Below are positions 2,644-12,469 of a stretch of DNA of 64,000 nucleotides, piece by piece. The number at the start of each line of letters is the position of its first letter. The stretch's first letter is position 1. Source of the stretch: Armatimonadota bacterium (GTDB taxonomy: Bacteria; Armatimonadota; Fimbriimonadia; Fimbriimonadales; Fimbriimonadaceae); assembly GCA_018268395.1 (NCBI GenBank), contig JAFDWQ010000008.1, positions 124,001 through 188,000 of the forward strand, read 5' to 3'. The position numbers and the translations under genes are program-made. Below the pieces are notes generated by a model. The model saw nothing but the letters and a program-made list of their open reading frames with translations. It had not been told where the DNA came from and ran no database searches.

Positions 2644-3204
2644 TCAACGGACTCCGTCGTCCTTGCTCACGACCGACTCGTCGATGACGAATTTCATACC
2701 GGACTTGATACCAAGTTTCCTAAGGATGCCGGCCCGCAGTTCGATCACGTACTTCGATCCGCCCCGGCTCGAGTAGTCGGTCGTCTCGTCGAACGCTTTC
2801 ATCGTGTACGTGTTCAGGATCTTCCCGTCCTGGTCGCAGTAGCAAATGTCGAGGTCGACGTGCGTGTTGTGCATCCAGAACCTCCGGGTCTCTTCGCCGA
2901 GGAAGACGAAGATCATGCCCTCGTCGTCTTTGAAGTCCGTGTTCTTCAGGAACATCATGCCTTCGGACCTCTTGGCGTCCGTGTCCATGACCCAAAGATT
3001 GAACTTGTGCTTGTCGACGGTCACCTTGGTGACTTCGAGCTTGTCGAGCTGGAAGATCCGCTCGTCGACGAACCGGTGCTTGGGCTTAGGCTGCTCTTGT
3101 TGCCCCACTTTCGACTGCTCGTCCTGACGCATGGCGGCAAGGTCGAGGGTCGAGAGGGCGGGGCCGCTCGTCATCAGGGCGCTGGCTAGGATCAGGCTGG
3201 TCAT
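2644..3204 (-). CDS. DUF192 secreted protein
   Basis: A Sec-type signal (MTSLILASALMTSGPALS) precedes a DUF192 domain covering about residues 50-180, with the same signature strings as the downstream lipoprotein (LWVMDTDAKRSEGMMFL, RFWMHNTHVDLDICYCD). Length and motif order fit the family. The protein is predicted to be extracytoplasmic; its activity is not known. It begins 34 bp after leuD and ends within 3 bp of the next start, so it belongs to the same transcription unit. Confidence 0.85.
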   Translation of the reverse strand: MTSLILASALMTSGPALSTLDLAAMRQDEQSKVGQQEQPKPKHRFVDERIFQLDKLEVTKVTVDKHKFNLWVMDTDAKRSEGMMFLKNTDFKDDEGMIFVFLGEETRRFWMHNTHVDLDICYCDQDGKILNTYTMKAFDETTDYSSRGGSKYVIELRAGILRKLGIKSGMKFVIDESVVSKDDGVR

Positions 3205-3888: not shown

Positions 3889-4137
3889 TCACGCGGAACG
3901 GACCGCTCGGACCACTTCGCCAGGCTCCGCGTGCCGCCCGGTCTCCTTCTTAGAGAAGACGATCCGGTCGTCCACGGTCACTTCGAACACGCCGCCTTTC
4001 GACGGCACGACGGTCACAGACTCCAAAACCGACTGCGCCCCGACCGGGACTTTGAACGCTTCGATCAGCTCAGCCGCCAGACCGACGGCCCTCGACGTGT
4101 AGTTTCAAGGGACGCAGAACTCGATGACGACTTTCAC
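3889..4137 (-). CDS. SelW/Rdx-family selenoprotein (in-frame UGA = Sec)
   Basis: Reading through one UGA at 4107-4105 gives an 82-residue protein with the Rdx (SelW/SelT/SelH) layout. A first strand VVIEFC is followed by Cys8-Val-Pro-Sec11, then NYTSRAVGLAAEL, and a C-terminal half containing GGVFEVTVDDRIVFSKKETGR and PGEVVRAVR. These are family hallmarks, so the frame continues well past the UGA and the Sec sits exactly at the second redox position of CxxU. The start is GTG 4137 with GGAG just upstream; an in-frame TAA precedes it, so no earlier start exists. It lies 9 bp after the DUF4287-AHSA1 gene. A standard gene caller would split or miss it. It needs SelA/SelB/SelC/SelD, none of which is in this window. 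The alternative is a pseudogene or a Cys codon misread. Confidence 0.85.
4072..4090 (-). promoter_or_regulatory. bSECIS-like hairpin downstream of the Sec UGA
   Basis: Immediately 3' of the UGA the mRNA can form a 7-bp stem (GGCCGUC with GGCGGCU, two G-U pairs) capped by the loop GGUCU. The loop starts 21 nt after the UGA and its first two bases are G. Both points match the known bacterial SECIS rule of a short stem with a G among the first two loop bases roughly 16-37 nt from the UGA. It was found by hand pairing only. Confidence 0.6.
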
Positions 4138-12321: not shown

Positions 12322-12370
12322 CCGGCGGCGCCCTAAGAGTCGGTCGGCCTTGTGCCAGAATCTAAGTTAA

Positions 12371-12434
12371 GACTGAGGAGCGTTGCAATCCCGGAAACGG
12401 GACCAGGCTCAGTCTGAAAGTTCAACGGCGCTCG
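12371..12434 (+). promoter_or_regulatory. S-adenosylhomocysteine (SAH) riboswitch
   Basis: The leader of ahcY has the SAH riboswitch layout. P1 pairs GACTGAG (12371-12377) with CTCAGTC (12408-12414). The conserved segment GGAGCGTTGC follows the 5' arm. P2 is UCCCG-GAAA-CGGGA, and the ACCAGGCTC segment closes the core. GAGCGTTG can form the family's pseudoknot with CAACGGCGCTC at 12423-12433. In known examples SAH binding turns expression on. Confidence 0.88.
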
Positions 12435-12469
12435 TCCCGATCCTTCGGGGCGAGCGCTCTTGTCTTTTT
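12428..12469 (+). terminator. Riboswitch-controlled intrinsic terminator
   Basis: A 13-bp perfect stem (12428-12440 with 12445-12457, one G-U pair, loop TCCT) is followed by TCTTGTCTTTTT. Its 5' arm shares bases with the 3' strand of the SAH riboswitch pseudoknot, so the two structures exclude each other. SAH binding would prevent termination and allow ahcY transcription. Confidence 0.85.

Follow-up and report, generated by a model that had tools for sequence, protein, structure and literature searches.

Does the in-frame UGA at positions 4107-4105 of the window, by which we mean the whole 64,000-nucleotide stretch of DNA analysed here, encode selenocysteine (Sec)? The initial annotation read the minus-strand frame that begins at GTG 4137, crosses this UGA and stops at 3889 as an overlooked SelW-like selenoprotein. 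From the sequence evidence assembled below, we consider that the locus is almost certainly an intact SelW-like (Rdx) selenoprotein gene, in which Sec would be inserted at residue 11 via a hairpin to form a C8-x-x-U11 redox pair. The features on which the argument turns are the following.

3889-4137, minus strand: predicted SelW-like/Rdx selenoprotein gene, GTG start, TGA stop at 3891-3889 (PF10262, TIGR02174, AlphaFold2/Foldseek)
4105-4107, minus strand: in-frame UGA, the U11 codon of C8-V-P-U11, predicted to specify selenocysteine (column with TGA in 93 distinct genes and TGC in a single one)
4114-4116, minus strand: cysteine codon C8 of the CxxU motif (column invariant in a 30-sequence alignment)
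4072-4090, minus strand: candidate bacterial SECIS (bSECIS) hairpin, stem GGCCGUC / GGCGGCU, loop GGUCU at 4083-4079 (MFE, compensatory pairs, shuffles)

Reading frame, family and predicted fold

Translation of the minus-strand frame 4137-3889 yields 82 residues and passes through UGA 4107-4105 at U11 (VKVVIEFCVPUNYTSRAVGLAAELIEAFKVPVGAQSVLESVTVVPSKGGVFEVTVDDRIVFSKKETGRHAEPGEVVRAVRSA), so that the coordinates, frame, UGA, end and product first proposed are all reproduced. GTG 4137 is the sole available start because it is preceded by the in-frame TAA 4149-4147, which is the stop codon of the upstream AHSA1-domain gene. The terminal codon of the gene is also TGA; TGA would therefore be used in two senses within one gene.

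For the profile and structure work, Sec was written as Cys in the product. In the profile search, the product scored above the cut-offs of both PF10262 (Rdx; 71.9 bits versus 22.6, E 4.9e-20) and TIGR02174 (CXXU_selWTH; 54.7 bits versus 34.2), and the homology extends over both sides of the UGA, where the initial annotation had recognized Rdx strings. The score against the narrower equivalog NF041051 (SelTWH_Campy; 79.7 bits, E 1.4e-22) lies under its cut-off of 88 bits, and the product is therefore not filed under it. An AlphaFold2 model built from 30 aligned natural sequences (mean pLDDT 96.5, pTM 0.85) has a thioredoxin-like fold in which the CxxC/CxxU motif follows the first strand (E2-8, motif 8-11, H14-27). 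Its best Foldseek matches are the SelW-related entries 2fa8, 3dex, 2ojl, 2obk, 2p0g and 2oka (TM 0.81-0.86), and the next ones are MIEN1 and mouse SelW. Positions 8, 11, 49 and 63 (C, C/U, G and K) are invariant in the 30-sequence alignment, with Sec written as C.

Conservation of the UGA and of the downstream hairpin

The Rdx profile recovered 39 genes from 291 genomes of the phylum, and 38 of them contain exactly one internal TGA, including those of all four genomes of the genus; the single gene lacking one belongs to genome G062. Read codon by codon, residue 11 is TGA in 31/31 phylum genes, the other seven TGA genes (G150-G155 and G157, one genus) being represented by the internal-stop count only. 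It is likewise TGA in 62/62 relatives fetched from other bacteria, which by their record titles include Chloroflexi, Gemmatimonadetes, Actinomycetota, Planctomycetota, Acidobacteria and bacilli, and which represent close relatives of the query rather than an Rdx census. Across all fetched loci the codon is TGA in 110, a number that includes genes fetched twice and corresponds to the 31 phylum and 62 other-group genes (92 distinct sequences), and TGC in one, a distant relative within the phylum that has Cys at this position (locus L119, from G062). Cys forms also exist elsewhere: five of the seven plasmid-borne homologues read have TGC. Homologues thus have either Sec or Cys where the in-frame UGA stands, namely at the second redox position, as the initial annotation had placed it. 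Chance is ruled out by conservation, because the UGA of 93 distinct genes falls in one alignment column that is flanked on either side by protein homology. Moreover, in 16 in-register comparisons with relatives, differences downstream of the UGA number 477/347/679 at codon positions 1/2/3, the pattern expected for a translated frame.

The hairpin GGCCGUC-GGUCU-GGCGGCU has 7 bp and an MFE of -11.3 kcal/mol, and its loop starts 21 nt past the UGA, which bears out the 7-bp stem, loop and suitable distance described at the outset. It stays within all the bounds that the published bSECIS model sets (PMC13188914). A generic hairpin alone is nevertheless weak evidence, because 169 of the 1506 TGA trinucleotides of the window (11%) precede a hairpin that satisfies the general bSECIS limits of 4 bp or more in the stem and an MFE of -7.5 or lower. 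Nor, given its composition, does the 39-nt stretch fold with unusual energy when compared with shuffles (z 0.12). Only this locus in the window combines a GGTCT loop, a stem of at least 6 bp and that distance from a TGA.

Comparison across relatives is more telling. Among the 31 distinct phylum sequences, each of the inner five pairs is kept in 28 to 31, and pairs 6 and 7 in 16 and 14, respectively; since the latter hold in about half of the sequences, the conserved core is 5 bp. All 31 have G as the second loop base, and the UGA-to-loop distance is constant at 21 nt.

Could the UGA encode Sec while the hairpin merely reflects constraint on the amino acids and codons of the RAVGLAAE segment, rather than a SECIS element? 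This segment is conserved in its residues and GC-rich, and coding alone accounts for many of the pairs: when codons were exchanged only between sequences sharing the same amino acid (1000 runs), a mean of 167.4 +- 2.7 of the 217 cells remained paired. The observed value in the phylum, 181/217, was however reached in none of the 1000 shuffles, and the observed pairing also exceeded all shuffles in the other phyla and in all 92 sequences combined. Furthermore, in a 26-sequence alignment the covariation score was 0.306 versus 0.132 for shuffled data (0/500 as high) and at most 0.127 when the partner was slid by 1-3 columns, and one stem pair alternates between C-G, G-C and U-A. The Cys homologue L119, the single Cys control in the phylum, keeps only 2/6 pairs as read from its sequence. 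Together with the constant spacing, these observations make a purely coding origin of the hairpin very improbable. The compensatory changes support the bSECIS reading of the initial annotation, and decoding of the UGA very probably proceeds through a bacterial SECIS element.

Within the loop, bases 1 and 4 are interdependent among the 92 distinct UGA-Rdx sequences (G/C 27, G/U 0, A/C 17, A/U 30; p 8e-9, uncorrected for ancestry). This dependence is not forced by the protein, because base 4 mostly opens a Leu codon, for which CUG and UUG are synonymous. The published bSECIS model (PMC13188914) refers to pairing of two loop bases, N1 and N2, which, as we read it, would correspond to the first and fifth loop bases here, as opposed to the first and fourth observed. 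That Rdx in the phylum is almost purely Sec-containing (38/39) and, in addition, that the loop dependence is a real determinant of SelB recognition beyond shared ancestry is a proposal we put forward tentatively and regard as rather unlikely.

Selenocysteine machinery and gene neighbourhood

The source genome (3.72 Mb, 99.8% complete) encodes selA (428.8 bits), selB (342.6 bits versus a cut-off of 242), selD (345.9 bits) and a tRNA-Sec (selC) with anticodon TCA. The supposition that this organism makes selenocysteine, which the absence of these genes would have contradicted, is therefore backed by a complete decoding machinery. The selD gene itself (L017:1423-2412, minus strand) has its own in-frame UGA (CAGUASKLG), followed by a strong 7-bp hairpin whose loop, GCAAG, is unlike the GGUCU loop of the Rdx gene. 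Because the formate dehydrogenase homologues of the source genome have no internal stop, selD and the Rdx gene are the only Sec genes found among those inspected in it.

Across the phylum, a strong selA match is present in 34 of the 38 genomes with a UGA-Rdx gene versus 108 of the 253 others (Fisher p 3.4e-8, with shared ancestry ignored and seven weak matches set aside). Three of the remaining UGA-Rdx genomes, G070 (73% complete), G006 (72%) and G209 (88%), lack any selA match, and G004 (92% complete, in 1060 contigs) has weak partial matches only. One genome of the same family has its Rdx gene within 1 kb of selA, and in two bacilli selD and selA flank the gene.

These data bear on the possibility that the UGA is translated, for instance as Trp or Cys, by a near-cognate tRNA or through general stop readthrough, which would likewise keep the downstream frame under selection. 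Such readthrough is, in our judgement, more improbable still than a hairpin shaped by coding alone: tRNA-Sec and selA/B/D are present in the genome, UGA also serves as the final stop of both the Rdx gene and selD, UGA-Rdx genes accompany selA, and a covarying hairpin follows the UGA. Least credible of all is a pseudogene in decay, its Cys codon mutated to TGA. Such a change takes a single mutation from TGC or TGT, and other bacteria do have Cys homologues; yet 93 distinct genes of several phyla share the UGA, close relatives show none of the frameshift or decay that would have spoken against the initial annotation, the downstream codons are under constraint and the hairpin covaries.

The immediate neighbours of the Rdx gene, a leuD-type gene (Aconitase_C domain) downstream and the AHSA1-domain gene upstream, give no clue to its function, and homologues of the neighbouring leuD-type, AHSA1-domain and FMN-binding genes were found in no other fetched Rdx locus. 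An automatic clustering of neighbourhoods was set aside, being dominated by frames of doubtful coding status. Elsewhere in the window, a SAH riboswitch is located at 12369-12440 on the plus strand (62 bits versus a gathering score of 37), and two adjacent, slightly overlapping minus-strand genes (1988-2647 and 2644-3204) both encode DUF192 proteins, an apparent tandem duplication.

Proposed decoding and relation to known systems

In the selenoprotein reading of the locus, SelB with Sec-tRNA(Sec) would bind the hairpin just 3' of UGA 4107-4105, selenocysteine would be placed at residue 11 to form the C8-x-x-U11 redox pair, and translation would stop at TGA 3891-3889. The product might then act as a thiol/selenol-disulfide oxidoreductase with a thioredoxin fold, the selenol being the likely attacking group and C8 the partner thiol; a redox function has been suggested for the CXXU motif (PMC1088965). 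The reading frame, the family, the predicted fold, the Sec machinery, the conserved UGA and the covarying hairpin are what the analysis shows; Sec insertion itself, the redox chemistry and any substrate are inferred.

Bacterial SelW-like selenoproteins with CxxU form an established family, known since 2005 (PMC1088965, PMC1794560). With 48 genes, they outnumbered every other selenoprotein family in the Sargasso Sea survey (PMC1088965), and they are reported to have few or no Cys counterparts in Sec-using organisms (PMC1794560). A full-text literature search combining selenoprotein or selenocysteine with Armatimonadetes, Armatimonadota or Fimbriimonas returned nothing relevant as judged by title and abstract. 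The gene is thus a fresh SelW-like member in a lineage for which we found no report, and selenocysteine use is documented here for both the genome and the phylum. In addition, the bSECIS model could be refined with the 92 distinct SECIS sequences, which vary naturally within a fixed geometry.

It had also been proposed that gene callers would miss such a gene. This is plausible for simple callers, as the records of Cytobacillus and Thermomicrobium roseum indicate; however, NCBIfam models do name the family a (seleno)protein, and the class is not an unknown one. In T. roseum DSM 5159 plasmid NC_011961.1 (407770-408785), a TGA occupies the Sec codon of the Rdx gene and the annotated CDS (458-640 of the locus) begins downstream of it, so that the record holds a truncated protein. 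In Cytobacillus spongiae plasmid NZ_CP089998.1 (370250-371268), a UGA-Rdx gene adjoining selD has no listed CDS in the PLSDB gene table, which is itself incomplete. UGA-Rdx genes in public plasmid records can therefore be without a listed CDS or annotated only past the UGA.

With the bacterial SelW-like selenoproteins (PF10262; TIGR02174) the gene shares family, size, CxxU motif and the succession of UGA and bSECIS element, and it differs from them in its host lineage. The E. coli fdhF SECIS element has a bulge, whereas the hairpin described here has none and a conserved core of 5 bp; its GGUCU loop is that of fdhF. At the level of predicted structure, the fold resembles those of the bacterial SelW-related proteins 2fa8, 3dex and 2p0g (within the TM range given above) and of mouse SelW (2npb; TM 0.68). 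By sequence, 2fa8 and 3dex are the two closest structures, and both have Cys at the position where the protein encoded in the window has its predicted Sec, and Rdx relatives from other phyla have a shorter loop after the first helix.
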